Assembly (NCBI GenBank): GCA_001544655.2
Contig: FCOD02000008.1
Coordinates: forward strand, 124,001 to 188,000
DNA: 64,000 bases
Direction of reading: 5' to 3'
Origin: Caballeronia turbans
GTDB lineage: Bacteria; Pseudomonadota; Gammaproteobacteria; Burkholderiales; Burkholderiaceae
The notes below the pieces were generated by a model. That model saw nothing but the letters and a program-made list of their open reading frames with translations, was not told where the DNA came from and ran no database searches. Made by a program: the position numbers and the translations under genes. Shown here piece after piece: positions 18,644 through 41,660 of the stretch; position 1 is the stretch's first letter, and every line of letters starts with the position of its first letter.

Positions 18644-19336
18644 TCATGGTGCCTCGCGCACGATGCCGACGAGCGCCGCCGACCGCGCGCAGCCGATCGC
18701 GATCCCGACAGCCGCCACGGCGAGCGCGCCATGCGTGCCGTCGATCGCCGCCGCAAGGGCGAGGCCGCCCGCGGCCGCTGCGCTCATCAGGCTCGCCGCA
18801 GGTGCGCCCGCCGCGCCGCCCATCGCGAGCGACAAATGCGCGCCGATGAGCGCGACCATCGCAATGACCGACACCACGGCGAGCGCGCCCGGTTGCGCGC
18901 CGAGCCCATAGGCGAGCGCCGCGCACGCGCCGGCACAGGCGAGATGCAGCGGCTGGAGGATCAGGTTCTCGCGCTTCGTCCGCGCAAAGATCAGATGACC
19001 CAGCGCCGCAATCGCGCCGCCCGCCAACACCCCACACGTGCCATTCAGGCCCGGCAGCACCCATGCGACGAAAGCGATCGTGGCGAGCAACGCGTGCGTC
19101 GATGCACTGGACGCGCCCCCGTCGAATCGATATCCGGCCAAGCCCGCGAAAGCCGCAAGCAGGAGCGCCGCGGCCAGCGGCGCGATGGCAGCCGGCCCGC
19201 CGCTCGCGCAAGCAGCGGCGACGATCACCGCGCCGGCCACCGCCCACGCGCGCAAACGCGCCGCGCCCATGCGCATCGACGAACCCGCCGACAGCGCCGC
19301 GAGCACGCAAAGCGCCCCGGCGAGAGCATCGGACAT
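18644..19336 (-). CDS. polytopic membrane protein resembling the transhydrogenase PntB membrane domain
   Basis: This is a 230-residue, extremely Ala-rich protein with about eight hydrophobic helices. Segment VALIGAHLSLAMGGA near residue 165, with its spacing to later helices, resembles the PntB region that reads GGADMP in true transhydrogenases; here that motif is degenerate (GGAAGAP). The soluble NADP-binding domain of PntB is absent. The ATG at 19334-19336 has AAGGAG upstream. It is the last gene of the oxalate operon, 11 bp after the fumarylacetoacetase-family gene. The family call is tentative and proton translocation with NADP is unlikely. Confidence 0.6.
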   Translation of the reverse strand: MSDALAGALCVLAALSAGSSMRMGAARLRAWAVAGAVIVAAACASGGPAAIAPLAAALLLAAFAGLAGYRFDGGASSASTHALLATIAFVAWVLPGLNGTCGVLAGGAIAALGHLIFARTKRENLILQPLHLACAGACAALAYGLGAQPGALAVVSVIAMVALIGAHLSLAMGGAAGAPAASLMSAAAAGGLALAAAIDGTHGALAVAAVGIAIGCARSAALVGIVREAP

Positions 19337-19347
19337 GCGTCGCTCCT

Positions 19348-20136
19348 TCAGGCGGCCAGCACGTTCGACAGCGTGCCGATGCCCGCGATCGACACATCCA
19401 CGCGCGCGCCGTCCTTGATCGAGCCGACGCCGATCGACGTGCCGCACGCGATCACATCGCCGGGCACGAGCGTCATGTCTTGCGACAACATGCTCACTTG
19501 CTCGGCGGGCGAGAAGATCATGTCGTCGAGAGGATAATTCTGGCGCTCGACGCCTTCGACCGTCGTGACGACGCTCGATGCGCGCCAGTCGAAGCCGTTG
19601 CCCGGCGTGACGATCGCGGGCCCGAGACAGGTGAACGTGTCGAAGCCTTTCGAGCGGCACCACTGCGCGAAGTTGGGATCTTCCTGCAACAGCTCGATCG
19701 CGGTGACGTCGTTCACGCACGTGAAGCCGAAGATCGCCGCCTGCGCCTCCTCGACCGACGCCCCGCTCACCGTCTTGCCGATCACGATGCCCAGTTCGCC
19801 CTCATACGCGATCTTGCCGTGATAGCTCTTCGGCCGGCGGATCGACTCGTTTGGCCCGATCACCGACATCGGCGGCTTGATGAGAAAGAGCGGATGCTGC
19901 GGCGGCGCCTTGTCGAGCTTCTGCGACAGCGCGTAGTAGTTGTTCCACAGCGCGATGACCTTGCTTGGCTGGCACGGCGCGAGCAGCGCGAGGTCGGCGG
20001 CGGCAAAGGAGATGTCGGTCGGGCGCGGGCGGTCGAACATCGCGCCTTCGTGCTGCACGACGCGGCCCGAGTGCTGATCGAGCGTGCCGAAACCGATGCT
20101 GCCGCCCGCATCGCGAAAACGAATCCAGTGTGTCAA
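19348..20136 (-). CDS. fumarylacetoacetate hydrolase family protein
   Basis: This is a 262-residue protein with a complete FAH-type C-terminal domain. Metal-binding positions lie in the block YEGELGIVIGK near residue 110, then FGFTCVNDVTAIELLQ near 136 and the closing VIACGTSIGVGSIKDG. Relatives hydrolyse or decarboxylate beta-keto or 2-oxo acids. It starts with TTG at 20134-20136, supported by AAGGGAGG eight bases upstream; no ATG fits. It is the fourth gene of the oxalate operon; its substrate there is unknown (perhaps oxaloacetate-like acids). Confidence 0.85.
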   Translation of the reverse strand: MTHWIRFRDAGGSIGFGTLDQHSGRVVQHEGAMFDRPRPTDISFAAADLALLAPCQPSKVIALWNNYYALSQKLDKAPPQHPLFLIKPPMSVIGPNESIRRPKSYHGKIAYEGELGIVIGKTVSGASVEEAQAAIFGFTCVNDVTAIELLQEDPNFAQWCRSKGFDTFTCLGPAIVTPGNGFDWRASSVVTTVEGVERQNYPLDDMIFSPAEQVSMLSQDMTLVPGDVIACGTSIGVGSIKDGARVDVSIAGIGTLSNVLAA

Positions 20137-20200
20137 GTTTGCCTCCCTTGTGAGGAGCGCGGGCGTACATGGCCCGCGCTCTCGTCCCCTCCTCCTTACA

Positions 20201-22408
20201 TCAGATCAAACCCGCGCCGCGCGCCCACTTGTATTTCGCGCCGAGCACCGCGACGGGCAGTTCCGTCGAGTAGGCGTAAGCAGGCACGCCATGCTCGTAA
20301 AGATACTCCGCCGCTTCCTCGACCTGCACGTCGCCCGCCAGCGACGCGACGATCGGCTTCTCGATGCCGAGCGCTTTCATCTCCTCCTTCACTTCAATCA
20401 CGAGCTTCGCGAAGACCATCGGCGGCGTGATGATCGTGTGCCAGTAGCCGAGGATGATCGAATGGATGCGATCGTCTTCCAGCCCGAGGCGGATCGTGTT
20501 CTTGTACGTCGTCGGCGGCTCGCCTCCGGTGATGTCGACGGGATTGCCGGCCGCGCCGAACGGCGGGATGAACTTGCGGAACGCGGCGTCGAGATCGTCG
20601 GGCATCGTCATCAGCGACAGGTTGTTGTCGACGCACGCATCCGAGAGGAGCACGCCCGAGCCGCCCGCCCCCGTGATGATGACGACGTTCTCGCCCTTGG
20701 GCGTCGGCAGCTTCGGAATGCCGCGCGCGAATTCAAGCAGATCGCGCAGGGAGCGCGCGCGGATCACGCCGCATTGCTGGAACACGTCTTCGTAGATCTT
20801 GTCGTTGCCCGCGAGCGCGCCGGTGTGCGAGCTCGCCGCGCGCGCGCCGAGGCTCGTGCGGCCCGCCTTCAGAACCACGACCGGCTTCTTCTTCGACACG
20901 CGCTTCGCGGCCTCGGCGAACGCACGTCCATCCTTCAGGTCCTCGCAATGCTGCGCGATGATCTCGGTGTTGTCGTCCTGTTCGAAGAACGTGAGCAGAT
21001 CGTCTTCATCGACATCGCTCTTGTTGCCGAGGCCCACGATCGCCGACACGCCCATTTTCGCCGAGCGCGAAAAGCCGATGATCGCCATGCCGATGCCGCC
21101 CGATTGCGACGACAGCGCGGCCTTGCCTTTCACGTCATATGGCGTGCAGAACGTCGCGCACAGGTTCTTCGGCGTGTAGTAGAAGCCGTAAATGTTCGGG
21201 CCCATCATGCGGATGTCGTACTGGCGCGCGATCCTGACGATCTCCTCCTGGCCTTCGTGATTGCCGGTCTCGGCAAAGCCGGAAGGAATCAGCACGGCGC
21301 CCGGAATCTGCTTCTCGCCCACTTCGACGAGCGCCTGCGCGACGAACTTCGCCGGAATCGCAAAAACGGCCACATCGATCACGCCGGGCACGTCCTTCAC
21401 GCTCTTGTAGGCCTTGCGGCCCATGATCTCGTCGGCTTTCGGATGGATCGGATAGATCGTGCCCTGATAGCCGCCGTTGATGAGGTTCTTCATCACCGAA
21501 TTGCCGATCTTCCCGTCCTCGTTCGACGCGCCGATCACCGCGACCGCATCGGGCTTCATGATGCGGTTCATCTGCTTGACGATCTGCTCCTGCGTCGGCC
21601 GGTAGCGCGGCGCCGCCGGCTCGAAGTCCATCACGATGCGCACGTCCGCCGCCACCGCTCCGTTCGGGCTCGCGAAGACCGGGTTCAGGTCCATCTCCGA
21701 AATTTGCGGGAAGTCATCGACGAGACGCGACACGCGCTCGATCAGCGTGATGAGCGCCTCGCGATTCACCGGCTCCGAGCCGCGCACGCCGCGCAGCACT
21801 TCGGCGGCCTGGATGCCGTCGAGCATCGATGCGGCTTCGTCGCGCGTCACGGGCGCGAGGCGGAAGGTCACGTCTTTCAGCACTTCGACGAGCACGCCGC
21901 CGAGACCGAACGCGATCAGCTTGCCGAACGACGGATCGGTCACCGCGCCGATGATCACTTCCTGCCCGGCGCCGACCATCTGCTGGACCTGGACGCCGAC
22001 GAGCGTCGCGTTCGGGTCGTATTTCTTCGCATTCGAAATGATCGTGTCGAAGCCGGCCCGCACGTCGGCTTCGTTCTTCACGCCGACCAGCACGCCGCCC
22101 GCTTCGGTCTTGTGCAGGATTTCGGGCGATACGATCTTCAGCACCACCGGAAAGCCGATGAACGACGCGAGCTTCGCGGCATCGTCCGCAGACTTCGCGA
22201 CGCCTTCCTGCGGCACCGCGATGCCGTATGCATCGCAGACGAGCTTGCCTTCGGGCGCCGTGAGCGAGGTGCGGCCTTCGGCCTTCACGCGATCGAATAC
22301 TTCGGCGACGCGGCGCTTCGCGTCGGGTGCGTGCAGCGGCACGACCGGCGCCGCGTGCGTGGATGAGTTGGCTGCTTCGCTGCGTTCCTGGACAACCGTG
22401 CTGTTCAT
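20201..22408 (-). CDS. NDP-forming acyl-CoA synthetase with N-terminal ATP-grasp domain
   Basis: The protein has 735 residues. Residues 30-245 form an ATP-grasp domain (FPVVLKIVSPEILHKTEAGGV; MDLNPVFA). Residues 265-735 hold the CoA-binding Rossmann part (PDAVAVIGASNEDGKIGNSV), followed by the phosphohistidine region SSHTGALAGND and FGAAGNPVDITGG. The usual fused acetate-CoA ligase (ADP-forming) has the CoA-binding part first, so the order is swapped. The start at 22406-22408 follows GGAGATACGC. Next to frc it could activate oxalate, formate or a related acid with CoA, bypassing or priming CoA transfer. That role is inferred. Confidence 0.85.
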   Translation of the reverse strand: MNSTVVQERSEAANSSTHAAPVVPLHAPDAKRRVAEVFDRVKAEGRTSLTAPEGKLVCDAYGIAVPQEGVAKSADDAAKLASFIGFPVVLKIVSPEILHKTEAGGVLVGVKNEADVRAGFDTIISNAKKYDPNATLVGVQVQQMVGAGQEVIIGAVTDPSFGKLIAFGLGGVLVEVLKDVTFRLAPVTRDEAASMLDGIQAAEVLRGVRGSEPVNREALITLIERVSRLVDDFPQISEMDLNPVFASPNGAVAADVRIVMDFEPAAPRYRPTQEQIVKQMNRIMKPDAVAVIGASNEDGKIGNSVMKNLINGGYQGTIYPIHPKADEIMGRKAYKSVKDVPGVIDVAVFAIPAKFVAQALVEVGEKQIPGAVLIPSGFAETGNHEGQEEIVRIARQYDIRMMGPNIYGFYYTPKNLCATFCTPYDVKGKAALSSQSGGIGMAIIGFSRSAKMGVSAIVGLGNKSDVDEDDLLTFFEQDDNTEIIAQHCEDLKDGRAFAEAAKRVSKKKPVVVLKAGRTSLGARAASSHTGALAGNDKIYEDVFQQCGVIRARSLRDLLEFARGIPKLPTPKGENVVIITGAGGSGVLLSDACVDNNLSLMTMPDDLDAAFRKFIPPFGAAGNPVDITGGEPPTTYKNTIRLGLEDDRIHSIILGYWHTIITPPMVFAKLVIEVKEEMKALGIEKPIVASLAGDVQVEEAAEYLYEHGVPAYAYSTELPVAVLGAKYKWARGAGLI

Positions 22409-22497
22409 GTCGCGTATCTCCGATTTATATGGGCGTGCCGGGTCCGCGCCGCCTTCTCTCGAAGGCGGCGGGAGGCAAAGCAACTGCGTGGATGCGC

Positions 22498-23760
22498 TCA
22501 GATCGCGCCGAGGCTTCTCAGCGTGGCGACCTGGTCAGGCGTGTAGCCGAGCTCGGCCATGACTTCGTCCGTGTGCTCGCCGAGCAGCGGCGAGCGCACG
22601 ACGTCCGTCGGGCTGTCGGACAATTTGATCGGATTGCCGACCGTGAGGTATTTGCCGCGCACCGGATGATCCACTTCGACCACGGTCCCGGTCTTGCGCA
22701 GCGACGGTTCTTCGGCGATCTCCTTCATCGAGAGAATGGGGCCGCACGGGATGTCGTGCTTGTTGAGGATTTCCATCGCCTGGAACTTGGTCTTCGACAT
22801 CGTCCAGCGCTCGATCTCCGCGAAGATGTCCTTCAGATGCGGCAGCCGCGCGTTCGGCGTCTTGTAGTCCGGATGGTCGATCCATTCCTCCTTGCCGATC
22901 ACCTTGCAGATTTCACCCCATACCGGCGCCTGCGTGATGAAGTAGATGTACGCGTTCGGATCGGTTTCCCAGCCCTTGCACTTCAGGATCCAGCCGGGCT
23001 GGCCGCCGCCCGATGCGTTGCCCGCGCGCGGCACCGCTTCGCCGAACGTGCCGTTCGGGTATTGCGGATACTCCTTCATTACGCCGGTGCGTTCCAGCCG
23101 TTGCTGGTCGCGCAGCTTCACGCGGCAGAGGTTGAGCACGCCGTCCTGCATGGCGGCGAGCACTTTCTGGCCGCGTCCGGTCGAGTTGCGCTGATAGAGC
23201 GCCGTGACGATGCCGAGCGCGAGATGCAGACCGGTGCCGGAATCGCCGATCTGCGCGCCGGTCACCGTCGGCGGGCCGTCGTCGAAACCGGTCGTCGAGG
23301 CCGCGCCGCCTGCGCATTGCGCGACGTTTTCGTAGACCTTGCAGTCCTCGTACGGTCCGGGTCCGAAGCCTTTCACCGACGCGACGATCATCCGCGGATT
23401 CAGTTCCTGGATGCGCTCCCACGTGAAGCCCATGCGATCGAGCGCGCCCGGCGCGAAGTTCTCGACGAGCACGTCGCATTTCTTCACGAGCGTCTCGAGC
23501 ACCTTCTTCCCTTCGGGATTCTTGGTGTCGATGGTGATCGAGCGCTTGTTGTGATTGAGCATCGTGAAGTAGAGGCTGTCGGCGTCGGGGATGTCGCGCA
23601 GTTGCTCCCGCGTGATGTCGCCCGCGCCCGCGCGTTCCACCTTGATGACGTCCGCGCCGAACCACGCGAGCAGCTGCGTGCAGGTCGGCCCCGATTGAAC
23701 GTGCGTGAAATCCAGGATTCGCACGCCGTCCAGCGCCTTGCCAGATGTGTTCACCGTCAT
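22498..23760 (-). CDS. frc: formyl-CoA:oxalate CoA-transferase
   Basis: This is a 420-residue class III CoA-transferase that moves CoA from formyl-CoA to oxalate. It matches what I know of Oxalobacter formigenes Frc in long blocks: [58 protein letters not shown] and [11 protein letters not shown]. The catalytic Asp is D173 in QIGDSGTG, and the mobile glycine loop is [13 protein letters not shown] precedes the ATG. It lies between the TPP enzyme (45 bp upstream) and the NDP-forming synthetase, in the order expected for an oxalate operon. Confidence 0.95.
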
Positions 23761-23804
23761 GGCTTGTCTCCCAACTCTTTCGTTCGACGTTTATAGGTTC
23801 ACAT

Positions 23805-25571
23805 TTATTTGTACATCGTCTGCGCCATCGTGCCCGGCGCGTAGACAGTCGGATCGACCCAGATGTTGATGACCGCGCTTTTGCCCGTCTTCGCCACCGA
23901 TTCGCGCGCCCGCTGCAGCGCGCCTGCGATCTTCGAGGCTTCGCGCACTTCCTCGCCGTAGCCGCCGAGCATTTCGGCGAAGCGGCCGTACGGCACATCC
24001 GAAAGCAGATTGCCGACATTGCCGCGCTCTTCGCCGTATTTCGCGAGCTGGCCGTAGCGGATCTGGTTCATCGCGGAGTTGTTGCCGATCACCGCGATAT
24101 ACGGCACACCGAAGCGGTTCGCGGTTTCCATGTCGAAGGACGTCATGGAGAACGCGCCATCGCCGTAGTAACAGAGTACTTCTTTCTCGGGGTTGGCGAG
24201 GCCCGCCGCAATCGCGAAACCCGTGCCGACGCCGAGCGAGCCGAGCGCGCCCGGGTCCATCCACTGGCCGGGGCGGCGCGGGCGAACGGCCTGCGCGGAG
24301 ATCGTCACGACATCGCCGCCGTCGCCGATATAGATCGTGTCGTCGGAGAGGAACTGGTTGATTTCGTGCGCGACGCGGTACGGATGGATCGGGCTCGCAT
24401 CGGAGGTGAAGAGCGGCATCAGCTTGGCGGTCGCGGTTTCCTCAAGCGCGGCGAGCTCGCGCATCCACGCCTGGCGCGCCTGACGCTTGTCGTTCTTCAG
24501 GCGTCCCGTCGACGCTTGCAGGACTGCGCCGAGAATCGCGCCCGGATCGCCGACGAGACCGAGATCGATATCGCGGTTCTTGCCGACCGTGCGGTAATCC
24601 ATGTCGATCTGCACGAGCTTCAGGTCGCGGCTGATGCGCTTGCCGTAGCCCATGCGGAAGTCGAACGGCGTGCCGACGATCACGATCAGATCCGCCTTCG
24701 CGAAAGCCTGCGAGCGCGTGCGGTCGAAGTGATGCGGGTCGCCCGGCGGCAGCAGGCCCCGGCTCGCGCCGTTGAAGTAGCCTGGAACGTCGAGGCCGCG
24801 CAGCAAGGCGATCGCTTCTTCGTGGCCGCGCGCCGTCCACACTTGCTGGCCGAAGAGAATCGCGGGACGTTCGGAGTTGACGAGCAGATCCGCGAGCTGC
24901 TCGATCGACTGCGGATCGCCGACCGATTTCGTCGACGCGCGATAGCGGCCGGGCTGCGGAATCACGGCCTTCGACACGTCGATTTCACGGTCGAGCACAT
25001 CGCGCGGAATCTCGAGATACGCCGGGCCGGGCGCGCCGTTGAAGGCTTCGCGCGCGGCCATCGACACCATGTCGGCGACGCGCTCGGTGCTCGGCACGGT
25101 GGCGGCGAACTTGGTGATCGGCGCCATCATGTCGACGTGCGGCAGATCCTGCAGCGAACCCATCTTGTGCTGGGTCAGGGCGCCCTGCCCGCCGATATGA
25201 AGGATCGGGCTTTCCGAGCGGAACGCCGTGGCGACGGCCGTCACCGCGTTGGTGCAGCCCGGTCCGGCGGTCGTCACGACGCAGCCGAGCTTGCCGGTCT
25301 GACGGGCGTAGCCGTCGGCGGCGTGGGCGGCGACCTGCTCGTGGCGCACGTCGATGATGCGGATGCCTTCATCGACGCAACCGTCATAGATATCGATGAT
25401 GTGGCCGCCGCACAGCGTGAAGATCGTGTCGACGCCTTCGTTCTTCAAAGCACGGGCGACCAGATGGCCGCCCGAAATGACGCCTGCGCCGCGGGTCTTC
25501 TGCTTCAGCGTGTCATCGGCGGTGGTGGTGGCTGGAGCGACTTCAGGGCGGCTGCTGACGACTTCGGACAT
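23805..25571 (-). CDS. thiamine-diphosphate enzyme in the oxalyl-CoA decarboxylase position
   Basis: The protein has 588 residues with the three-domain fold of acetolactate synthase and oxalyl-CoA decarboxylase. The catalytic Glu is E78 (DVRHEQVAAHAADGY). The TPP-Mg motif GDGAFSMTSFDMETANRFG ends about 28 residues later with GNN. It lacks the sequence feel of canonical Oxc (for example YGVVGIP is FTLCGGHI here) and looks closer to the 2-hydroxyacyl-CoA lyase/acetolactate-synthase-like clade. Its place directly before frc argues for oxalyl-CoA decarboxylation or a related glyoxylate reaction. AGGAGGAG precedes the ATG at 25569-25571. It is the first gene of a five-gene operon. Confidence 0.8.
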   Translation of the reverse strand: MSEVVSSRPEVAPATTTADDTLKQKTRGAGVISGGHLVARALKNEGVDTIFTLCGGHIIDIYDGCVDEGIRIIDVRHEQVAAHAADGYARQTGKLGCVVTTAGPGCTNAVTAVATAFRSESPILHIGGQGALTQHKMGSLQDLPHVDMMAPITKFAATVPSTERVADMVSMAAREAFNGAPGPAYLEIPRDVLDREIDVSKAVIPQPGRYRASTKSVGDPQSIEQLADLLVNSERPAILFGQQVWTARGHEEAIALLRGLDVPGYFNGASRGLLPPGDPHHFDRTRSQAFAKADLIVIVGTPFDFRMGYGKRISRDLKLVQIDMDYRTVGKNRDIDLGLVGDPGAILGAVLQASTGRLKNDKRQARQAWMRELAALEETATAKLMPLFTSDASPIHPYRVAHEINQFLSDDTIYIGDGGDVVTISAQAVRPRRPGQWMDPGALGSLGVGTGFAIAAGLANPEKEVLCYYGDGAFSMTSFDMETANRFGVPYIAVIGNNSAMNQIRYGQLAKYGEERGNVGNLLSDVPYGRFAEMLGGYGEEVREASKIAGALQRARESVAKTGKSAVINIWVDPTVYAPGTMAQTMYK

Positions 25572-25638
25572 TGTTGTCTCCTCCTCGATGGGGTGGTGTG
25601 CGGGGCTCCCGTGACGTCGTCCTGCCGTCCGGTTCCTG

Positions 25639-25647
25639 TGATATACA
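25639..25647 (+). promoter_or_regulatory. putative GntR operator, site 1
   Basis: TGATATACA lies 68 bp before the start of the TPP-enzyme operon. GTATT occurs about 20 bp further on. The sequence matches the TATAC-centred operators common for FCD-type GntR regulators. Confidence 0.55.
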
Positions 25648-25857
25648 ATATTCCACACACAGTATTAGTCAACTATAGTCCGATCGGCGAAAACCCTGTG
25701 ATGCACTGCAAGATCGTCGTGGCGGCCGGTTTGGCGTGCTTTTCGACGTGCTCAACGCTGCAGTGCATCAATCGCTGTATGCCTTCCATGCGCGTTAAGA
25801 AGTTGCTGAACACCGGACCGCATGCCTCGATAAAAGTGTTTTGACCGCCGTGAAATC

Positions 25858-25866
25858 TGATATACA
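25858..25866 (+). promoter_or_regulatory. putative GntR operator, site 2
   Basis: TGATATACA lies 72 bp before sucC. It is embedded in CTGATATACAG and flanked symmetrically by TGAAAT (25851-25856) and ATTTCA (25869-25874), giving a nested inverted repeat centred near 25862. Confidence 0.6.
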
Positions 25867-25937
25867 GTATTTCAGCGCGCCCTTGGATACGCGTTTGTGG
25901 CCGCGCGCATTCCCATCAGAGGACATCAGGAGACGCA

Positions 25938-27137
25938 ATGAACATCCACGAATATCAGGCGAAGACGCTGCTGCGGAAGTACGGCGTCGCGGTTCCAGCG
26001 GGCCGCGTCGCCTTTTCCGCGCAGGAAGCCGCCGACGCGGCGAGCGCGCTCGGCGGGCCGGTCTGGGTCGTGAAATCGCAGATTCACGCGGGCGGCCGCG
26101 GCGCGGGACGCTTTTCGAATGATCCGGACGGCAAAGGCGGCGTGCGCGTCGTGAAATCGGTGGACGAGGTACGCGAGAACGCGCAGAAGATGCTCGCATC
26201 GGTGCTCGTGACGAAGCAGACCGGGCCGGCGGGCAAGGAAGTGAAGCGTCTCTATATCGAGGAAGGCTGCGATATCGCGCGCGAGCTGTATCTCGGCATG
26301 CTGGTCGATCGCGCCACGTCGCGCATCACGATCATGGCGTCGACCGAAGGCGGCATGGAGATCGAGGAAGTGGCGCACCGCACGCCCGAGAAGATCCTCA
26401 AGGTCGCGATCGATCCGGCGACCGGGCTTCAACCCTTTCACACGCGCCAGATCGCATTCGGACTCGGCCTGAGCGGCAAGCAGGTCAGCGCGGCATCGAA
26501 GTTCATCACGGCGCTGTATCAGGCGTTCGTCGATCTCGACGCGTCCATCGTCGAAGTGAATCCGCTCGTCGTGACCGGTTCCGGCGACGTGATGGCGCTC
26601 GACGCCAAAATCAATTTCGACGACAACGCGCTCTATCGCCATCCCGACATCGAAAAGCTGCGCGACGAAGACGAGGAAGATCCCGCCGAAATCGAAGCGG
26701 CGAAACACGGGCTGAACTACGTGAAGCTCGACGGCAACATCGGCTGCATGGTGAACGGTGCCGGCCTCGCGATGGCCACGATGGACATCATCAAGCTCTA
26801 TGGCGGCGAGCCGGCAAACTTTCTCGACGTCGGCGGCGGCGCGACGCAAGAACGCGTGTCCAGCGCGTTCAAGCTGATCCTGCGCGACCCGAAGGTGCAG
26901 GGAATCCTCGTCAACATCTTCGGCGGCATCATGCGTTGCGACGTGATCGCGCAAGGCGTGGTCGCGGCGGCGCGCGAAGTCGACCTGCGCGTGCCGCTCG
27001 TCGTGCGCCTCGCCGGAACGAATGTCGATGCCGGCCGCGAAATCCTGCGCACGTCCGGTCTCACGATCATCCCCGCCGAAAACCTCGCCGATGCCGCCGA
27101 CAAGATCGTCAGCGCCGTCGCCGCTGCCCAACACTAA
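25938..27137 (+). CDS. sucC: succinyl-CoA ligase (ADP-forming) beta subunit, second copy type
   Basis: This is a 399-residue ATP-grasp subunit. It opens with [17 protein letters not shown], and the Gly-rich loops [13 protein letters not shown] and [18 protein letters not shown] are present. The segment [16 protein letters not shown] is the usual phosphohistidine-contacting part. CAGGAGACGC precedes the ATG. Housekeeping sucCD normally sits elsewhere in Burkholderiaceae, so this looks like a pathway-specific paralogue, either to make succinyl-CoA for priming Frc or as a malate-CoA ligase. The sequence cannot separate these. Confidence 0.88.
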
Positions 27138-27150
27138 CGAGGAAGCCGAC

Positions 27151-28023
<873 letters not shown>

Positions 28024-28120
28024 TGGTTCGTCCGTTTCATCGTTCAGTCGACGCGTCGTTGCTTGCGACGACGCCCGGGCAAGCGTTGGCACTATCGGTT
28101 CTGTCATTCGGAAAGCAAAA

Positions 28121-28153
28121 AAGGCTGCGCGGCAAACGCCGCGCAGCCTTTTT
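28121..28153. terminator. bidirectional rho-independent terminator
   Basis: A 13-bp perfect stem (AAGGCTGCGCGGC with its complement at 28138-28150) closes a 4-base loop, with A-run before and T-run after. It separates the convergent sucD and gntR genes. Confidence 0.92.
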
Positions 28154-28176
28154 CATTATTGAACCTCAAACCGCCA

Positions 28177-28920
28177 TCAATCCAGAAAGTCGCAATTCGC
28201 CTCGACGAACGCCGCCAGATCCAGCGAGTGCTGCTTCACGAGCCGCTCGACCAGCTCGGTATCGCGCTTTTCCAGCGCCTCGATGATGCGCATGTGATCG
28301 ACGATCGAGCGCGACGCCCGGTCGCTCTGCGAGATCGTCATCTTACGGATGGCGCGCACATGCACGAAGATGTTCTTGATCGTATCGAAGATGATTTCCG
28401 ACTTCGACAGCCGCACGATCGCAGAATGGAAAGCGATATTCGCTTCCGAATACTCGTCGATGTGCTCGGCGGGCGTCGAGTCACGGAAATTGTCGAACAT
28501 GTGGCGCAAGTGGGCGATTTCCTCGTCCGTTGCGCGCTGCGTCGCGAGCCGCGCCGCCATGCTTTCCAGCGCCGCCCACATATGGATCATCTCGACGATC
28601 TCGCGCTTGGTCTTGCGCAAGATGTAGACGCCGCGGCGCGGCACCGTTCGCAGGAACCCTTCCTGCTCGAGCAGCGTCATGGCCTCGCGGATCGGGGTGC
28701 GCGAGACGCCGAGCGCCTCGGTCAGCTCTTTCTCGTCGAGACGGATTTCTTCCCGCGAGCGGTAGATGTCCGCCTCGGCGATCGCCTGCCGCAGCTTCGC
28801 GTACGCCTGGTCGCGCAGCGAAACCGTGGCATTGATCGGCTCCAGCGAAAGTGTGAGCCCTGACGGACGAACGTCGGGGCGAACTTCCGGCCTGTCTACG
28901 GATTGAGTATCAGATGGCAT
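28177..28920 (-). CDS. GntR-family (FCD domain) transcriptional regulator
   Basis: The protein has 247 residues. The winged helix is near residues 35-100 (LRQAIAEADIYRSREEIRL, ALGVSRTPIREAMTLLEQEG, RRGVYILR). The FCD effector domain follows, with metal-ligand-like residues in EANIAFHSAIVRLS and SRSIVDHMRIIEALEKRD. It is FadR/FCD subfamily and usually senses organic acids. Its start overlaps the end of a small membrane-protein gene by 11 bp. Copies of TGATATACA lie upstream of this unit and three others, so it is the best candidate for the oxalate regulator. Confidence 0.9.
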   Translation of the reverse strand: MPSDTQSVDRPEVRPDVRPSGLTLSLEPINATVSLRDQAYAKLRQAIAEADIYRSREEIRLDEKELTEALGVSRTPIREAMTLLEQEGFLRTVPRRGVYILRKTKREIVEMIHMWAALESMAARLATQRATDEEIAHLRHMFDNFRDSTPAEHIDEYSEANIAFHSAIVRLSKSEIIFDTIKNIFVHVRAIRKMTISQSDRASRSIVDHMRIIEALEKRDTELVERLVKQHSLDLAAFVEANCDFLD

Positions 28921-29131
28921 TGATGGCTTGATTTCCCAAGTGCGGACGGCCAGCGTCGACACGCTTGCCCGAACCGCCGTTCTGGTCCTCCGCCGCAAGA
29001 CCGGCGAATCGACCGTGATCCTGTGCGCGCTGCAGCATGTTCTGCGGCACCGCCGACGCAATCATAAACGTAACACCCATACCCACGGCAACCAGCGCGA
29101 ATCCGACAACAACCAACAGGGCGATGCTCAT
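28910..29131 (-). CDS. small single-helix membrane protein coupled to gntR
   Basis: The protein has 73 residues. Residues 2-30 form one strong hydrophobic helix (LLVVVGFALVAVGMGVTFMIA), followed by a polar tail of about 40 residues. GGAGCCTGAG precedes the ATG, and the gene ends 11 bp inside gntR. No family is recognised. If real, it is co-translated with the regulator. The tail overlaps no other coding frame except the first codons of gntR. Confidence 0.6.
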   Translation of the reverse strand: MSIALLVVVGFALVAVGMGVTFMIASAVPQNMLQRAQDHGRFAGLAAEDQNGGSGKRVDAGRPHLGNQAINAI

Positions 29132-29173
29132 CTCAGGCTCCGGTTAAATCACTCAAGAGCCCTCAGTATATGC

Positions 29174-29193
29174 TGCATCGCAACAGCGATGCA
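29174..29193. repeat. inverted repeat in the gntR promoter region
   Basis: TGCATCG, six bases, then CGATGCA forms a perfect 7-bp inverted repeat 43-62 bp before the small membrane-protein gene. It could be an operator half-site pair or part of an mRNA leader hairpin. Confidence 0.45.
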
Positions 29194-29208
29194 ACATATT
29201 TTGCATCT

Positions 29209-29217
29209 TGTATATCA
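29209..29217 (-). promoter_or_regulatory. putative GntR operator, site 3
   Basis: On the minus strand this reads TGATATACA. The surrounding 12-mer CTGATATACAAG is identical to that at site 4. It lies 78 bp before the small membrane-protein/gntR unit, consistent with autoregulation. Confidence 0.6.
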
Positions 29218-29246
29218 GAAACAACGTTGGTGCCTTTGTCTGCAGT

Positions 29247-30260
29247 TTAGGCGGCTTTTTGCGATTGCGGGAGCGGCAGCGGCTTCGCCGTGCCCTGGTT
29301 CACGCCCTCACGCAGTTTGATCAATGCGAGGACCGCATCAAGCATCGGCGTGCCTACGTGAACCAGCCGGCCGATTTCCTGCACGACCGTCATCAGCGGG
29401 TCGATCTCCATCGGGCGTCCGGCCTCGCAATCCATCAGCATCGACGTCTTGTGCGCGCCGACCGCGCCCGCGCCGTTGATGCGCCGCTCCACATCGACGC
29501 GGAAGTTCACGCCGATCTTGTCGCCGATGGCCTTCGCCTCCAGCATCATCGCCTTCGAGAGCGCGCGGGTGCCGGGATCGCTCGTCAATACGTCGAGCGT
29601 CGCGCCGGTCAGCGCGCTGATCGGGTTGAAACACAGGTTGCCCCAAAGTTTCAGCCAGATTTCGTCGCGGATGTTGTCGCGCATCGGCGCCTCCATGTCC
29701 GCCTTGGCCATCATGTCGTGCAGCGCCTGAAGACGCGGCGTGATTTCACCGCTCGGCTCGCCGATCGGAAACTTCTTCCCGTAGTGATGCTCGATGACGC
29801 CCGGCTCCGCGATCTCCGCCGCCGGCAGCAGCACGCAGCCGATCGCGCGTTCCGGTCCGAACACGTCCCATTGCCGCCCGCCGGGGTCGACGCTCTGCAA
29901 CTTCGTGCCTTCCAGCTCGCCGCCGTGCTTGTAGAAGTACCAGTAAGGCAGTCCGTTGACGGCCGTGACGATCGCGGTCTCCGGGCCGAGCAGCGGCGGA
30001 ATCAGGTCGACGACCCCAGGAATCGAATGCGCCTTGAGCGCGATGATCACGTAATCCTGCGGACCGAGTTCGGCGGGATTGTTCGTGCAGCGCACCTTGA
30101 CGACATGCTCCTCGCCATCGATCCGCAGCTTGACGCCGTTCGCCTGCATCGCCGCGAGATGCGGTCCGCGGGCGACGAAACTGACGTCCGCACCGGCGCG
30201 CGCCAGTTGCGCACCCATATAGCCGCCGATCGCGCCGGCGCCGTACACGCAGATTTTCAT
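29247..30260 (-). CDS. 2-dehydropantoate 2-reductase (PanE/ApbA) family oxidoreductase, candidate oxalyl-CoA reductase
   Basis: This is a 337-residue NADPH-dependent reductase. The Rossmann motif VYGAGAIGGYMGAQLARAG starts at residue 4. The family Lys/Asn region VIIALKAHSIPGV and the C-terminal block WLKLWGNLCFNPISALTG, with its conserved Asn, are present. CAGGAGACG precedes the ATG. In Methylobacterium extorquens a PanE-like protein (PanE2) reduces oxalyl-CoA to glyoxylate. The position of this gene in an oxalate island, with the shared operator in front, suggests the same role. True pantothenate synthesis is the alternative. Confidence 0.82.
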   Translation of the reverse strand: MKICVYGAGAIGGYMGAQLARAGADVSFVARGPHLAAMQANGVKLRIDGEEHVVKVRCTNNPAELGPQDYVIIALKAHSIPGVVDLIPPLLGPETAIVTAVNGLPYWYFYKHGGELEGTKLQSVDPGGRQWDVFGPERAIGCVLLPAAEIAEPGVIEHHYGKKFPIGEPSGEITPRLQALHDMMAKADMEAPMRDNIRDEIWLKLWGNLCFNPISALTGATLDVLTSDPGTRALSKAMMLEAKAIGDKIGVNFRVDVERRINGAGAVGAHKTSMLMDCEAGRPMEIDPLMTVVQEIGRLVHVGTPMLDAVLALIKLREGVNQGTAKPLPLPQSQKAA

Positions 30261-30296
30261 GGTTCGTCTCCTGAGGGTTGTAGCCTTATAGCCTTC

Positions 30297-30305
30297 TGAT
30301 ATACA
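30297..30305 (+). promoter_or_regulatory. putative GntR operator, site 4
   Basis: TGATATACA lies 37 bp before the PanE-like gene (read on the opposite strand), inside CTGATATACAAG. The spacing fits direct repression over the promoter. Confidence 0.6.
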
Positions 30306-30419
30306 AGATACTACATTCCGTATTGAGCAAGAACAAGGCGAATCGTGCGCTCGCAAACGAGCGGAAACCCGCATGCGCAAGAGGCGCCGCGGGTGCGGAT
30401 GAAGAAGGGAAAGCGCCGG

Positions 30420-31358
30420 TCAGGCGCCGACAGCCTGACCCGAGATGAGAGTATGCGACGAGGACGCGACGATGTGTGACCACACACTGGCCGCGCTCGC
30501 GCGCAATGCGCGGCTCTTGCGCCGCACGAGCATGATCGTGCGCGACGCGTTTGGCACGAGCGGGATGAAGCGCGTCTGCGCGCTGTCGCATGCGGCGCGC
30601 GCGTGCATCGGCAGAATGCCGACGCCAAGCCCCGCTTCGGCCATGCGCGCGACCGCCGCCGGCTGCGTGAGTTTCTGACGCACCGCGCCGGTCACGCCGT
30701 GCAGCGCGAGCGCGGCTTCGATGGCGCGAAGGCTGCCGGTATCGTCATCGAGAAGAAGCAGCGGGGTGCCGCGCAGTTGCTGCCAGTCGATGCGCGCCGC
30801 GCCGCTCAACCGATGCGATACACCGACGACCGCCGCGAGGCCGTCGGCGAAAAGCGGTTCGGCGGCGAGCTCGTCGAGATTCTCCGGCGCGGCGACGAGG
30901 CCCAGTTCCGCCTCGCCCGAGCGCACGAGTTGCAGCACGGCGTTCTGCGGCCGATCCATCATCACGATCGTGATATCCGGCAAGCGCTCGTGACAGGACG
31001 CGAGCATGGCGGGCACGACGCTCGCCGTGAGACCGCAACTGCTCGCGAGATTCACGACACGCGGCTCGCCGCCCTCCTGCGCGCGCGGCCGTAGCGTCGC
31101 TTCCAGTTCTTCGACGAGCGGCGCGATGCGCGCGAGCAGCCTGCGTCCGGTGTCGGTGAGCGCGACCTGGCGCGTGGTGCGATCGAAGAGCCGCAGTGCG
31201 ATTTCGTCTTCGAGTTCTCTGATGCTGCGGCTGACTGCCGATTGCGTGATGCCGAATTCGTCGCCCGCGCGCGTGAAACTGCGATGCCGCGCGAGCGTGA
31301 CGAACAATCTCAGCTGATGCAGCGATACGCTGAGCGGCGGAGATTGTTCGCGCGTCAT
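30420..31358 (-). CDS. LysR-family transcriptional regulator
   Basis: The protein has 312 residues. The helix-turn-helix is at residues 20-80 (RHRSFTRAGDEFGITQSAVSRSIRELEDEI), with the rest a periplasmic-binding-protein-like effector domain (SCGLTASVVPAMLASCHERL). It starts 12 bp after the transporter gene on the same strand, so the two are probably co-transcribed and the regulator may respond to the transported acid. The ATG is at 31356-31358. Confidence 0.88.
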   Translation of the reverse strand: MTREQSPPLSVSLHQLRLFVTLARHRSFTRAGDEFGITQSAVSRSIRELEDEIALRLFDRTTRQVALTDTGRRLLARIAPLVEELEATLRPRAQEGGEPRVVNLASSCGLTASVVPAMLASCHERLPDITIVMMDRPQNAVLQLVRSGEAELGLVAAPENLDELAAEPLFADGLAAVVGVSHRLSGAARIDWQQLRGTPLLLLDDDTGSLRAIEAALALHGVTGAVRQKLTQPAAVARMAEAGLGVGILPMHARAACDSAQTRFIPLVPNASRTIMLVRRKSRALRASAASVWSHIVASSSHTLISGQAVGA

Positions 31359-31369
31359 GCCTCGACGCC

Positions 31370-32716
31370 TTACTGAACCGTATTGCGCGAGGCGTCCCAG
31401 CCCGTCTGGAACGACGCGTTGATCGACGATTCCGCCGACGTTTCCGCGAGCGTGTTTTCGATCCAGCGCTTGCGCATCGGCGCAAGGACGAACTTCGCGC
31501 ACAGTCCCGCCGCGATCGACGTCACGGCCGCCGTGATGAACACCGCGTTCCAGGAGCCGATCGACGCGAGCACCGACGCAAGCGGCACCAGCATCGACGC
31601 CGTGCCCTTCGCGGTGTACAGCGTGCCCGCGTTGGCGGCGGCGTATTTGCTGCCGAAGGTATCGGCGCAGGTCGCAGGAAAGATCGAGAAGATCTCGCCC
31701 CAGCAGAGGAACGTCATCGCCGCGAACAGCATGAAGAGATACGGATTGTGTCCGAACTCCATCAGCCCGAGCAGCGCGACGCCTTCGCCCAGGAAGATGA
31801 TGAACATCGTGTTCTCGCGGCCGATCTTGTCCGAGATGAAACCGCACAGCGGGCGCGTGAAGCCGTTGCACAGGTTATCGATGGACAGGGTCATCGCGAG
31901 CAGCGGCAGCGTCACGCCGAGAAGATTCACCGGCATCTTGGCGAAGCCGTACTCCTTCGCGATCGGCCCGAACTGCGCGGTCGCGATCACGCCGCCCGCC
32001 GCGACGAACACGAACATCAGATACAGCACCCAGAAGAGCGGCGAGCGCACCATCTGTCCTGTCGTGTAGTCGATCTTCGTCGACACGATGCGCTTGGCCG
32101 GCACGATGCCCTTCGGCGGATTCGGCCGCACGAGCATCAGCGCGAGCACGAAGATACACACGCCCTGCAGAATGCCGAAGAACATGAACGCGTGCTCGTA
32201 GCCCGAGCTCTGGATCATGTTGGAGATCGGAATCACGGTGACGGCCGCGCCCGCGCCGAAACCGGCCGCCGTCATGCCCGCCGCGAGACCGCGCTTGTCC
32301 GGGAACCACTTGAGCGCCGTGCCGACGCACGTGCCGTACACGCAGCCCGCGCCGATGCCCGCGACCACCGCCCCGATGTAGAGATGGATGAGACTCGTCG
32401 CGTGCGCGTCGATGATCCAGCCGAGCGCCGCGCAGATCGAGCCGCCGATGACGACCGGCCGCGGCCCGAACTTGTCGACGAGCCAGCCCTCGACGGGCAC
32501 GAGCCATGTTTCGGTGACGATGAAGATAGTGAAGGCTGTCTGAATCGCCGCTTGTCCCCAATGGTGTTTCGCATCCATCGGAACGACGAATAGGGTCCAT
32601 GCGTATTGCAGGTTGGCGACCAGCCCCATGCATATGATGCCGATCACTAGCTGGAACCATCTGTTGTGGTGACGCCCGTGCGATTGCCCGGACACAACCG
32701 TGTCTGCGCTTGCCAT
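31370..32716 (-). CDS. oxlT: oxalate:formate antiporter family MFS transporter (OxlT type)
   Basis: This is a 448-residue, 12-helix major-facilitator protein. It follows OxlT block by block: GLVANLQYAWTLFVVPM in helix 1, AAIQTAFTIF in helix 2, WFPDKRGLAAGMTAAGFGAG in the central region. The two charged residues that bind oxalate in Oxalobacter OxlT are kept: Arg at 288 (NGFTRPLCGF) and Lys at 370 (YTAKGTAS). It should import oxalate in exchange for formate, or take up oxalate. It heads a two-gene unit with a LysR gene. Confidence 0.88.
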   Translation of the reverse strand: MASADTVVSGQSHGRHHNRWFQLVIGIICMGLVANLQYAWTLFVVPMDAKHHWGQAAIQTAFTIFIVTETWLVPVEGWLVDKFGPRPVVIGGSICAALGWIIDAHATSLIHLYIGAVVAGIGAGCVYGTCVGTALKWFPDKRGLAAGMTAAGFGAGAAVTVIPISNMIQSSGYEHAFMFFGILQGVCIFVLALMLVRPNPPKGIVPAKRIVSTKIDYTTGQMVRSPLFWVLYLMFVFVAAGGVIATAQFGPIAKEYGFAKMPVNLLGVTLPLLAMTLSIDNLCNGFTRPLCGFISDKIGRENTMFIIFLGEGVALLGLMEFGHNPYLFMLFAAMTFLCWGEIFSIFPATCADTFGSKYAAANAGTLYTAKGTASMLVPLASVLASIGSWNAVFITAAVTSIAAGLCAKFVLAPMRKRWIENTLAETSAESSINASFQTGWDASRNTVQ

Positions 32717-33180: not shown

Positions 33181-34128
33181 GTGCTTCGCAACGCCACCCT
33201 GCGTCAATTGAAGATCTTCGAGACCGTTGCACGTCGACTGAGCTTTTCCCGCGCCGCCGAGGAACTGTATCTCACCCAGCCCGCGGTCTCGACGCAGGTG
33301 AAACAACTGGAGGAGCACGCCGGTCTGCCGCTCTTCGAGCAACTCGGCAAGAGAATCTACCTCACGCCGGCCGGGAATGAAATGCTCCATTACAGCCGGG
33401 CGATCCTCGAACAATTCCGCGAAGCCGACGACGCCATGGCGCGGCTCAAGGGCATTTCGGGTGGAACGCTCAACGTCGCGGTGATCAGCGCGGGCGATTA
33501 CTTCTTCCCGCGGCTGCTTGCAGCGTTCACGCAGCGTAATACCGATGTCAGGCTCAATCTTGCGGTGCACAATCGCGAAGAACTGCTGCATCAGCTTTCT
33601 GACAACCTCACCGACCTCGCCGTGATGGTGCGTCCACCGCGCGATATGGATACGGCCAATGTGTCATTCGCGCCGCATCCGTATGTGATCGTTGCGCCGC
33701 CCGATCATCCGCTCGTCGGACGGAGGAACATGCCGCTCGAAGCGCTGGCCGACGAGCCGTTCATCGTCCGTGAGCGCGGTTCGGATACATGGAATTCGAT
33801 GGAGGAAGGTTTCGCCGGCAGGCTTTCGAACCTGAACGTCGCGATGGAAATCACGAGCACGGAGACGATCAAGCAGGCTGTGATCGCCGGCATGGGTCTG
33901 AGCTTTCTATCCGCGCATACGATCAGCATGGAACTGCAGGTCGGGAAGCTGGCGGTGCTCGATATCGAGGGTTTTCCCGTGATGCTCAACTGGTTCGTCG
34001 TGCATCGGAACAATAAGCGTCTGCCGCCGGTGGCGCTCGCGTTCAAACAGTTTCTTATCGAGGAAGGCGCTGCGCAGATCGAAGCCATCACCCAGATCGT
34101 CGCGAAAACCGGCAAGCCCAACTCATAA
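33181..34128 (+). CDS. LysR-family regulator of the CbbR type
   Basis: The protein has 315 residues. The helix-turn-helix at 5-65 (RRLSFSRAAEELYLTQPAVSTQVKQLEEHAG) and the sensing domain (SGGTLNVAVISAGDYFFPRLL, RERGSDTW, GMGLSFLSAHT) are of the CbbR/RbcR group. It begins with GTG at 33181 after TGAAGGAT. Divergent from the oxalate transporter, it is a candidate regulator of that gene; CbbR-type proteins often respond to reducing power or C1 status. Confidence 0.88.
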   Translation: MLRNATLRQLKIFETVARRLSFSRAAEELYLTQPAVSTQVKQLEEHAGLPLFEQLGKRIYLTPAGNEMLHYSRAILEQFREADDAMARLKGISGGTLNVAVISAGDYFFPRLLAAFTQRNTDVRLNLAVHNREELLHQLSDNLTDLAVMVRPPRDMDTANVSFAPHPYVIVAPPDHPLVGRRNMPLEALADEPFIVRERGSDTWNSMEEGFAGRLSNLNVAMEITSTETIKQAVIAGMGLSFLSAHTISMELQVGKLAVLDIEGFPVMLNWFVVHRNNKRLPPVALAFKQFLIEEGAAQIEAITQIVAKTGKPNS

Positions 34129-34225
34129 CGTTCAATGAATAGATAAGCGAAAAAAGTTTAACTGTCGTATATGGATCATGTTTTCTATCCTGCATTCATG
34201 CCCCACGGCCATACAGGAGACGATC

Positions 34226-34564
34226 ATGAGCCATGCAACGTACAGCGATGACCGCGAAATTCAGGCGCAGGTCTGCGCATTCAATACCGCTTTCGAAGAA
34301 CTCGACCTGATGTTCCGTTGGGATGCGCAGACTTATCTCTCGCTCGCATCGGCCGACAGCGACTACGGGAAAATTGCGCAATACATCGAGACCCACTCTC
34401 CGCATCTCTTGAAGGCGTATAGCGCGGAGTTTCTCTGCCAGGCGATCGTCGAGCGGAAAAATTCGACCATTGAGGCGTGCCGGCAAAACACGGTTCAGTA
34501 TGAAGACAGCACGCAACGGGCGCGGCTTTGGAGAGCGCGCGACGAGGCAACGGCGCGCGTCTGA
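34226..34564 (+). CDS. hypothetical protein
   Basis: This is a 112-residue soluble, mostly helical protein that I do not recognise. It is rich in Gln, Glu and Ala, with several aromatics (LMFRWDAQTYLSLASADS). There is no signal peptide or membrane helix. CAGGAGACG gives a good ribosome site for the ATG at 34226. A strong terminator follows 19 bp after the stop. It has about 100 bp of its own upstream region. Confidence 0.75.
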   Translation: MSHATYSDDREIQAQVCAFNTAFEELDLMFRWDAQTYLSLASADSDYGKIAQYIETHSPHLLKAYSAEFLCQAIVERKNSTIEACRQNTVQYEDSTQRARLWRARDEATARV

Positions 34565-37705: not shown

Positions 37706-38053
37706 ATGGATCTCGAGCCCGTCGATAGCAATGATCGTTTCGCCGATAAGACGGATGAGTCTTGCGAATATCACATCGCCGGCGTCGTTGTATACGCACG
37801 AATAGAAGCATTGCCGAGCGTCACGCAGGCGCTCACCGCATTACCCGGTGCACAGGTTCACGGATCGAGCACCGACGGCAGGATCGTGCTCACGCTCGAA
37901 GCGGACCGTTCGTCCTGTGTCGCCGACCAGTTGCACGCGGCGCAATCGATACCCGATGTGGTAAGCATCGCGCTCGTCTACCAGCATCACGAACACGCCG
38001 ATTCGCTGAACGAGGATATCGCCGATGAAACTGACTCGTCGCGCGTTCATTAA
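37706..38053 (+). CDS. napD: NapA signal-peptide chaperone NapD
   Basis: The protein has 115 residues. The ferredoxin-like NapD core runs from [19 protein letters not shown] to [12 protein letters not shown]. NapD binds the Tat signal of NapA and holds back export until the molybdenum cofactor and cluster are in place. An N-terminal tail of about 20 residues precedes the core. The end overlaps napA by 29 bp. Confidence 0.9.
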
Positions 38054-40508: not shown

Positions 40509-40517
40509 GAGCACGAC

Positions 40518-41003
40518 ATGCGCACGCTGATCGCTCTCGTCATCGCATCGCTGCTCGCTCTTGCCGTCATCGCGATCGCGCAGCCCACGGTCCCGAATCT
40601 GCCGTTCCACGACTCGCTGCGCGGCCTGACGCCGATCGGCGAAGAGACCCGGGCCCCGCTCATGGCGCCCACCGAAAACAAGGACGTGATACGCGGCCTC
40701 AACTACGCGCAGCAGCCGCCGACGATCCCGCACAAGATCGACAACTATCAGCTCGACAAGAACGCGAACCGCTGTCTCGCGTGTCATGCGCGCAGCCGTG
40801 TCGAAGAGAGCGGCGCCGTGCCCGTCGCGGTTTCGCATTACATGGACCGCGAGGGCGTGGTGTCCGGGCATCTGTCGCCGCGCCGCTATTTCTGCACGCA
40901 GTGCCACGTTCCGCAGGCGGACGCGAAGCCGCTCGTCGGGAATACGTTCGTCGCGATCGAAGACATCAGGCGGCAGCCGGCATCCAAGAACCAGAAACGA
41001 TGA
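40518..41003 (+). CDS. napB: diheme cytochrome c subunit of periplasmic nitrate reductase
   Basis: The protein has 161 residues. Signal sequence LIALVIASLLALAVIAIA. There are two heme c sites, CLACH at 86-90 and CTQCH at 126-130, plus distal His residues (YMDREGVVSGHLSP). It passes electrons from NapC to NapA in the periplasm. Confidence 0.95.
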   Translation: MRTLIALVIASLLALAVIAIAQPTVPNLPFHDSLRGLTPIGEETRAPLMAPTENKDVIRGLNYAQQPPTIPHKIDNYQLDKNANRCLACHARSRVEESGAVPVAVSHYMDREGVVSGHLSPRRYFCTQCHVPQADAKPLVGNTFVAIEDIRRQPASKNQKR

Positions 41004-41012
41004 GCGATCGAC

Positions 41013-41618: not shown

Positions 41619-41660
41619 GCGCGGCTCAAGGGTCTGGTCACAACGAGAGAGGAAACATCG

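Follow-up and report, generated by a model that had tools for sequence, protein, structure and literature searches.

The window analysed here is a stretch of 64,000 nucleotides from Caballeronia turbans (contig FCOD02000008.1, positions 124,001 to 188,000 of the forward strand; host genome of 7.35 Mb), and all positions below are those of the window. Between 19348 and 32716 it carries a conserved, predicted oxalate island with genes for a formyl-CoA transferase (Frc) and an oxalate antiporter (OxlT), in which the slot of oxalyl-CoA decarboxylase (Oxc) is occupied by a thiamine diphosphate (ThDP) enzyme of a different family. An earlier note on this DNA, in which the ThDP enzyme is called the TPP enzyme, had proposed that the uptake, activation, decarboxylation, and reduction of oxalate are united in this one island. 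The genes are, in order:

19348..20136, minus strand: FAA-hydrolase-family protein (PF01557, 195 bits)
20201..22408, minus strand: NDP-forming acyl-CoA ligase with alpha and beta parts fused (Ligase_CoA_2, ATP-grasp_5, and CoA-binding domains)
22498..23760, minus strand: frc (TIGR03253, 738 bits, cut-off 504.2; PDB 1pqy, YfdW, 630 bits; also placed by tree and loop)
23805..25571, minus strand: ThDP enzyme of a separate, sharply bounded family, a putative non-orthologous oxalyl-CoA decarboxylase (TIGR03254, 236 versus 739 bits)
25938..27137, plus strand: sucC paralogue, succinyl-CoA synthetase beta (NF001913, 595 bits, cut-off 370; motifs)
27151..28023, plus strand: sucD paralogue, succinyl-CoA synthetase alpha (NF004230, 472 bits, cut-off 336; phospho-His motif intact; start checked)
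28177..28920, minus strand: GntR/FCD regulator (PF00392, PF07729; found near 56 of 86 loci with the ThDP enzyme)
29247..30260, minus strand: PanE/ApbA-family reductase, a putative NADPH-dependent oxalyl-CoA reductase (PF02558, PF08546)
30420..31358, minus strand: LysR regulator (PF00126, PF03466)
31370..32716, minus strand: oxlT, oxalate:formate-type MFS antiporter (TIGR04259, 636 bits, cut-off 335; PDB 8hpj alignment)

Other genera repeat much of this gene set with its order preserved, so the island is more than a chance arrangement. Family searches recovered the NDP-forming ligase, sucC, sucD, PanE-like, FAA-family, and ThDP genes that had been named before, and the earlier calls of frc and oxlT were borne out. 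The catalytic aspartate of Frc, which we take to be Asp169, lies in the I/LGDS motif (IGDS in the alignment with 1pqy), and both of the oxalate-binding charged residues of OxlT, presumably Arg272 and Lys355, are conserved in the alignment with 8hpj. As frc and oxlT are standard by their family models, this might be an ordinary oxc-frc operon with unrelated neighbours. We consider this extremely improbable, because by family the ThDP enzyme is not an Oxc and because the neighbours keep the same order across genera.

The ThDP enzyme scores only 236 bits on the Oxc model TIGR03254, whose cut-off is 739.4, and we rejected it as a member of that family. It also falls short of its two best models, with 445 bits for a cut-off of 587 on one and, on NF058623 (AcHACL-type 2-hydroxyacyl-CoA lyase), 359 bits for a cut-off of 600. 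It is 99% identical to the enzymes of Caballeronia glebae and C. ptereochthonis. Among plasmid records, eight are at 64–97% identity and 1624 are under 60%, with the next among the matches listed at 37%; the homologue of C. metallidurans CH34 is 86% identical. Across species-representative genomes there are at least 587 pattern-matched stretches, the best 80 of which were fetched as loci, and at least 576 of the stretches encode a relative. Where members are annotated, they are called merely "thiamine pyrophosphate-binding protein."

The closest solved sequence is AcHACL (272 bits). Other 2-hydroxyacyl-CoA lyases/synthases reach 260 bits, and some of these entries are named Oxc in the PDB; the Oxc structures 7ayg, 2q27, and 2c31 score 195, 185, and 169 bits. 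A fold search with a predicted structure of intermediate quality (mean pLDDT 72) also ranked AcHACL first (best fold alignment, 32% identity) and E. coli Oxc 46th. The two active sites were matched by a HMMER sequence alignment with an offset of 11, derived from the mutant rows. Gln128 of AcHACL aligns with Gln141, which is invariant among the 23 aligned members of the ThDP family, but the catalytic acid/base Glu493 aligns with Ile504, and this position is Ile in 23 of 23. With the score below the cut-off and the catalytic Glu missing, the enzyme was rejected as a 2-hydroxyacyl-CoA lyase. The motifs QQGDYEE, NN-G-Y, and ESGR of Oxc are missing as well from the ThDP consensus (25 ThDP-family versus 15 Oxc sequences); the assignment of individual Oxc active-site residues to these motifs is our assumption. 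By its sequence, the ThDP enzyme belongs to a bounded family that is nearest to the actinobacterial 2-hydroxyacyl-CoA lyase and has neither that lyase's Glu nor the Oxc motifs. The active site of Oxc is described as Tyr120-Glu121, Tyr483, and Ser553 (OfOXC numbering), and its chemistry does not require proton transfer by a residue like Glu493 (PMC8760513). So, the missing lyase Glu is compatible with Oxc function.

In genome content, the ThDP enzyme behaves as a replacement for Oxc. Among 249 Burkholderiaceae genomes, 31 encode the ThDP enzyme (E ≤ 1e-100; one is a partial match) and 114 encode Oxc (E ≤ 1e-150; 112 are above the model's cut-off). Only three genomes encode both (G146, G020, and G128), versus 14.2 expected if the two were independent (P = 5.8e-6, Fisher test, kinship ignored). 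Within the window's own genus, 14 of 31 genomes have the ThDP enzyme, 13 have Oxc, and one has both (P = 4e-4, kinship ignored). In 397 genomes of the phylum, the ThDP enzyme was found in 4, Oxc in 31 (30 above the cut-off), and both in one, which are counts too small for a test. A profile search found no Oxc above the cut-off in the window's own genome.

The ThDP enzyme also replaces Oxc beside Oxc-type Frc. In a tree of Frc (96 of 165 rows kept, midpoint root, bootstrap not fully settled), all 17 rows that are adjacent to Oxc fall into one group (branch 0.83, support 100/100). Two ThDP-adjacent rows, L041 and L132, are nested inside this group, and therefore the ThDP enzyme at those loci adjoins an Oxc-type Frc. 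The glycine loop is GGGGQ in 17 of the 19 rows of the Oxc-type group and SGGGQ in 77 of 77 others. We think it probable that the ThDP enzyme functions as an oxalyl-CoA decarboxylase and forms formyl-CoA. (Two genomes have two copies of the ThDP gene: G404, at C1:2351699 and 2368108, and G072, at C1:1730739 and 2095739. In G072, one copy is in a panE/frc/FAA/oxlT island and the other adjoins an Oxc-type Frc.)

Nine genomes of the window's own genus have a sucC that is at least 90% identical to the island's, yet encode no ThDP enzyme. Their islands retain the aldehyde dehydrogenase and second LysR genes that lie beyond oxlT (below), along with oxlT, panE, GntR, sucC, frc, and FAA, in unchanged order. 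(On our maps, sucD is unlabelled in L146 and the first LysR is marked in some islands only.) In all nine, the interval from sucC to frc matches the window until 61–68 bp ahead of the ThDP start. Beside frc, six of the islands (L141 to L146) have 3′ remnants of the ThDP gene, of 50, 42, 283, 124, 52, and 76 bp, respectively, although half of the 50 bp depends on a weak 25-bp match; L147 to L149 have none. The NDP-forming ligase gene has left end fragments in L141, L143, L144, and L146, and it is whole in L145. These remnants imply that, before the loss, the genes ran in the order sucC, ThDP, frc, ligase, FAA; both neighbours of frc then disappeared while frc was kept. Seven of the nine genomes have Oxc above the cut-off, in G203 the Oxc is partial (652 bits), and in G061 neither enzyme is present. 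Of the six genomes with scars, five have Oxc.

The loci that we fetched are those of the closest relatives of the ThDP enzyme, so they are a non-random sample that is rich in Burkholderiaceae, and flanks were taken to 10–12 kb. Where at least 19 kb is in view (52 ThDP loci), frc is present in 49, oxlT in 27, the NDP-forming ligase in 27, panE in 26, FAA in 26, and sucC in 25. The complete set is present in 11 of the 52, from three genera (seven from Caballeronia or close kin, two from Cupriavidus, and two from Phyllobacterium). The earlier statement that the whole set is rarely combined is thus fair outside of these groups, but within flanks of this size its parts recur widely. The check that had been proposed, co-occurrence with frc in relatives, is passed in part.

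The NDP-forming ligase is encoded by 29 of the 249 Burkholderiaceae genomes, namely 25 of the 31 with the ThDP enzyme and four with Oxc. In one comparison of loci, most of those with the ThDP enzyme have the FAA gene, as do 9 of 26 with Oxc. As neither sucCD nor the ligase was seen in any of the 26 Oxc loci, we considered whether they never accompany Oxc. We rejected this because six of the loci spanned only 4.7 kb and because, in three Cupriavidus-like genomes, a whole-genome search placed sucCD and the ligase at a distance of about 3–6 kb from Oxc. Cupriavidus-like Oxc loci (L150 to L156, picked since sucC lay near Oxc) have panE, GntR, frc, FAA, oxc, a second frc, sucCD, and oxlT. A third frc is present in five of the seven, and L150 to L152 have the ligase. 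No sucCD is present in L157 to L159, which were fetched as other Oxc loci.

Some ThDP loci are arranged differently. L011, from a Phyllobacterium plasmid, has two distinct sucCD pairs (5107-7223 and 15182-17250) on either side of one ThDP-frc pair; one of the sucCD pairs has odd loops in both SucC and SucD, and an adjacent regulator is annotated as BhcR. In Actinomycetota (L012, L013, and L014, from Streptomyces and Nonomuraea), the ThDP gene, frc, and the NDP-forming ligase form a compact row, and L013 has a divergent, unusual SucCD.

Among all 86 ThDP loci, oxlT is present in 29 and a Tct transporter gene in 27, with both in one. A gene for a formyltransferase, formate-tetrahydrofolate ligase, or formate dehydrogenase is near 34 of the 86, of which 24 have Tct, 3 have oxlT, and 6 have panE. 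In 25 of 26 loci, the formyltransferase gene is on the same strand as frc and at most 315 bp away. (It resembles methionyl-tRNA formyltransferase and is found by frc at L076:13039-13995 and in 25 other loci of L009 to L094, in some of which it overlaps frc.) This gene neighbourhood points to formyl-CoA or formate as the product of the ThDP-Frc pair. The formyltransferase-like protein might even pass the formyl group of formyl-CoA directly to folate.

These loci also bear on a different role for the ThDP enzyme, as a carboligase that would condense glyoxylate with the one-carbon unit from oxalyl-CoA or formyl-CoA. The tartronyl-CoA would then be reduced or hydrolysed to C3 compounds. The nearest solved enzymes are 2-hydroxyacyl-CoA lyases/synthases, the conserved ThDP residues match neither the lyases nor Oxc, and PanE would produce glyoxylate next door. 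However, the ThDP enzyme takes the place of Oxc both in the gene content of genomes and next to Frc of the Oxc type, and of the 34 ThDP loci that have genes for the use of formate or formyl groups, only 6 have PanE. We view carboligation as very improbable.

The PanE-like protein is a member of the PanE/ApbA family in an oxalate context, by family search and by its position, which in Cupriavidus-like loci is close to frc and oxc. By analogy, it is very probably an oxalyl-CoA reductase, because of its family, its position, and the effect of deleting apbA2 in C. necator (discussed below).

SucC and SucD pass the cut-offs for succinate-CoA ligase and have its conserved motifs, including the phospho-His, and SucC is 61% identical to a second copy in the genome that we take to be the copy for the tricarboxylic acid (TCA) cycle. 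Malate-CoA ligase (PRK14046) was rejected for SucCD, at 566 bits for a cut-off of 604. The island and TCA copies differ at 3 positions in SucC and at 33 in SucD, none of which was linked to the substrate pocket; in this comparison, one L160 copy, taken as TCA, remained among the island rows. Chances seem even that the island's SucCD supplies succinyl-CoA for Frc. Transfer of CoA from succinyl-CoA to oxalate is reportedly a subject of Quayle's early work on Pseudomonas oxalaticus.

SucCD, the NDP-forming ligase, or both could instead join CoA straight to oxalate or formate with ATP, so that Frc would need no succinyl-CoA. The ligase did not match any NCBIfam model above its cut-off and comes after frc in many loci, SucC that is nearby in several lineages has altered loops, and two other class III transferases, YfdE and UctC, did not form a product when offered succinyl-CoA with oxalate (PMC3720670). 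Still, the motifs of succinyl-CoA synthetase are intact in SucC and SucD of the window, both of which score above the cut-offs of its models, and succinyl-CoA:oxalate transfer was assayed in extracts of P. fluorescens (PMC2752808). Direct ligation is on balance unlikely, if a serious contender. (In G173:C433:6575-8131, the match to the NDP-forming ligase is partial and has one TGA stop inside.)

What the sequences show directly is gene content, family membership, conservation, and how genes were lost. From these we propose the following scheme, in which each step is predicted from the genes. Oxalate would be imported by OxlT, and the Frc-type CoA-transferase would convert oxalate and formyl-CoA to oxalyl-CoA and formate. 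In one branch, the ThDP decarboxylase, which is non-orthologous to Oxc, would convert oxalyl-CoA to formyl-CoA and CO2. The formyl-CoA would hand its CoA to the next oxalate via Frc, and formate would be oxidised for energy by formate dehydrogenase (encoded in the genome; 942 bits, cut-off 666). In the other branch, the PanE-like enzyme would reduce oxalyl-CoA with NADPH to glyoxylate, which would enter the glycerate pathway via glyoxylate carboligase (Gcl, also encoded; 1196 bits, cut-off 711). Because the second branch drains the CoA donor, it would need the succinyl-CoA made from ATP by the dedicated SucCD, which would be an alternative CoA donor for Frc; the NDP-forming ligase would be a second source of CoA donors. 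Any role of the FAA-family protein or of the aldehyde dehydrogenase in this scheme is putative, as is the substrate of the ligase. In Burkholderia terrae BS001 near a fungus, a second oxalate cluster (of which only an antiporter and a formyl-CoA transferase are named) and genes of the glycerate pathway were upregulated (PMC5209427).

Alternatively, the flow could run in reverse: PanE would oxidise glyoxylate to oxalyl-CoA, Frc and SucCD would gain ATP, and oxalate (for metal tolerance) or formate would be released. Flow in this sense was suggested for aluminium-stressed P. fluorescens (PMC2752808), and the frc-oxc genes of C. necator support growth on glycolate once the glycerate pathway is deleted (PMC7486775). 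In contrast, the OxlT of the island points to oxalate as the input, and the PanE homologue of C. necator matters for growth on oxalate (PMC7486775). We consider reverse flow to be improbable.

The reading that we lean towards, with some reserve, is an island with two fates for oxalate, in which a non-orthologous Oxc is joined by a relay of SucCD, Frc, and PanE that would convert oxalate to glyoxylate at the expense of ATP and NADPH. This agrees with the earlier proposal of a single island for uptake, activation, decarboxylation, and reduction, except that the TPP enzyme does not belong to the Oxc family and that a PntB-like membrane protein drops out (below). With slightly less than even confidence, we suggest more broadly that a second, independently specialised oxalyl-CoA decarboxylase is spread across Pseudomonadota, Actinomycetota, and some other phyla, in a glyoxylate module that is primed by succinyl-CoA from SucCD and whose reductive part can persist without a decarboxylase that we could find (G061).

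Several points weigh against these proposals. As the Oxc motifs are absent, the sequence of the ThDP enzyme does not fix its substrate. The exclusion between the two enzymes is leaky, given the three genomes with both, and many of the 249 genomes have neither. The loss of the ThDP enzyme within the genus may be a single event, because the 5′ breakpoint is nearly common to all nine islands, and G061 retains its island without either decarboxylase. On the side of the CoA donor, YfdE and UctC are counterexamples; SucD differs from the TCA copies at 33 positions; no ligase is seen in 9 of the 26 PanE loci that cover at least 19 kb; and nearby SucC or SucD of other lineages have other loops, so succinate may not apply there.

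Four further genes flank the island:

18644..19336, minus strand: 230-aa predicted protein, formerly "PntB-like" (no Pfam or NCBIfam match; own-genus loci only)
33181..34128, plus strand: second LysR regulator (PF00126, PF03466; nearest model CbbR NF045990, 261 bits, cut-off 450)
34178..34564, plus strand: small conserved protein of 128 aa (matched by neither Pfam nor NCBIfam; 58 of the fetched loci have relatives)
34669..36120, minus strand: aldehyde dehydrogenase at the island's edge (PF00171, 606 bits; place kept in the nine ThDP-less islands)

The PntB label, from the earlier note, was rejected because the 230-aa protein matches no Pfam family at E ≤ 0.1 and no NCBIfam model at 0.001. Among the fetched loci, it is absent from those of other genera, and it is probably outside the pathway. 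The island continues beyond oxlT up to 36120, as these genes keep their positions within the genus. The 128-aa protein stays close to the second LysR gene in both ThDP-type and Oxc-type oxalate islands (the 58 loci plus the window, with some genomes counted twice). Near the opposite edge, at 16320-17879, is a gene for a KaiC-family ATPase with two KaiC stretches. Apart from the island, 38025-46254 encodes an 827-aa molybdopterin oxidoreductase (NapA-like in our reading) followed by ABC, CcmB, CcmE, and CcmF genes.

Oxalate degraders are often surveyed by counting oxc and frc. If the ThDP family is a functional Oxc, then surveys that are based on the Oxc family overlook a class of oxalate users (at least 576 stretches), and the enzyme would be an unexplored branch among the ThDP enzymes of one-carbon engineering. 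The available parts of four papers on oxalate genes (PMC12927642, PMC6994688, PMC5986945, and PMC12542777) and of one on the HACL family (PMC11271303) make no mention of the ThDP family. Among the open-access (PMC) papers listed by our literature searches, no title or abstract opening names an oxalyl-CoA decarboxylase that is from this family rather than from Oxc, or an oxalate cluster linked to sucCD. A SucCD-Frc-PanE cluster would assign genes to the succinyl-CoA-driven activation of oxalate that is known from extracts, and it would account for how the reduction of oxalate to glyoxylate is paid for.

Three known oxalate systems are close to the island. The oxlT-oxc-frc operon, which we take to be of the O. 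formigenes type, is represented by Bphyt_6739-6741 of P. phytofirmans PsJN (PMC3886118). Both have an oxalate antiporter, a formyl-CoA transferase, and a ThDP enzyme in the decarboxylase slot, but that of the window is outside the Oxc family, and sucCD, the NDP-forming ligase, PanE, and FAA are extra (PsJN was compared by its description). Second, in C. necator H16, deleting frc-oxc or the PanE homologue apbA2, a CoA-acylating glyoxylate dehydrogenase, affects growth on oxalate (PMC7486775). Those deletions show oxidation beside the formation of glyoxylate, and the double fate of oxalate (to formate and to glyoxylate) is not new in Burkholderiaceae; the difference is that the decarboxylase of H16 is annotated as oxc. 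In seven Cupriavidus-like Oxc loci, sucCD is beside frc-oxc. Third, a triad of AGODH, oxalate CoA-transferase (OCT), and succinyl-CoA synthetase (SCS) was assayed in P. fluorescens (PMC2752808), and its roles equal those that we propose for PanE, Frc, and SucCD. Those assays used extracts and ran towards oxalate and ATP, and the stem "sequenc" does not occur in the main text of that report. Our best reading, by analogy, is that the island is the gene-level counterpart of this Pseudomonas triad.

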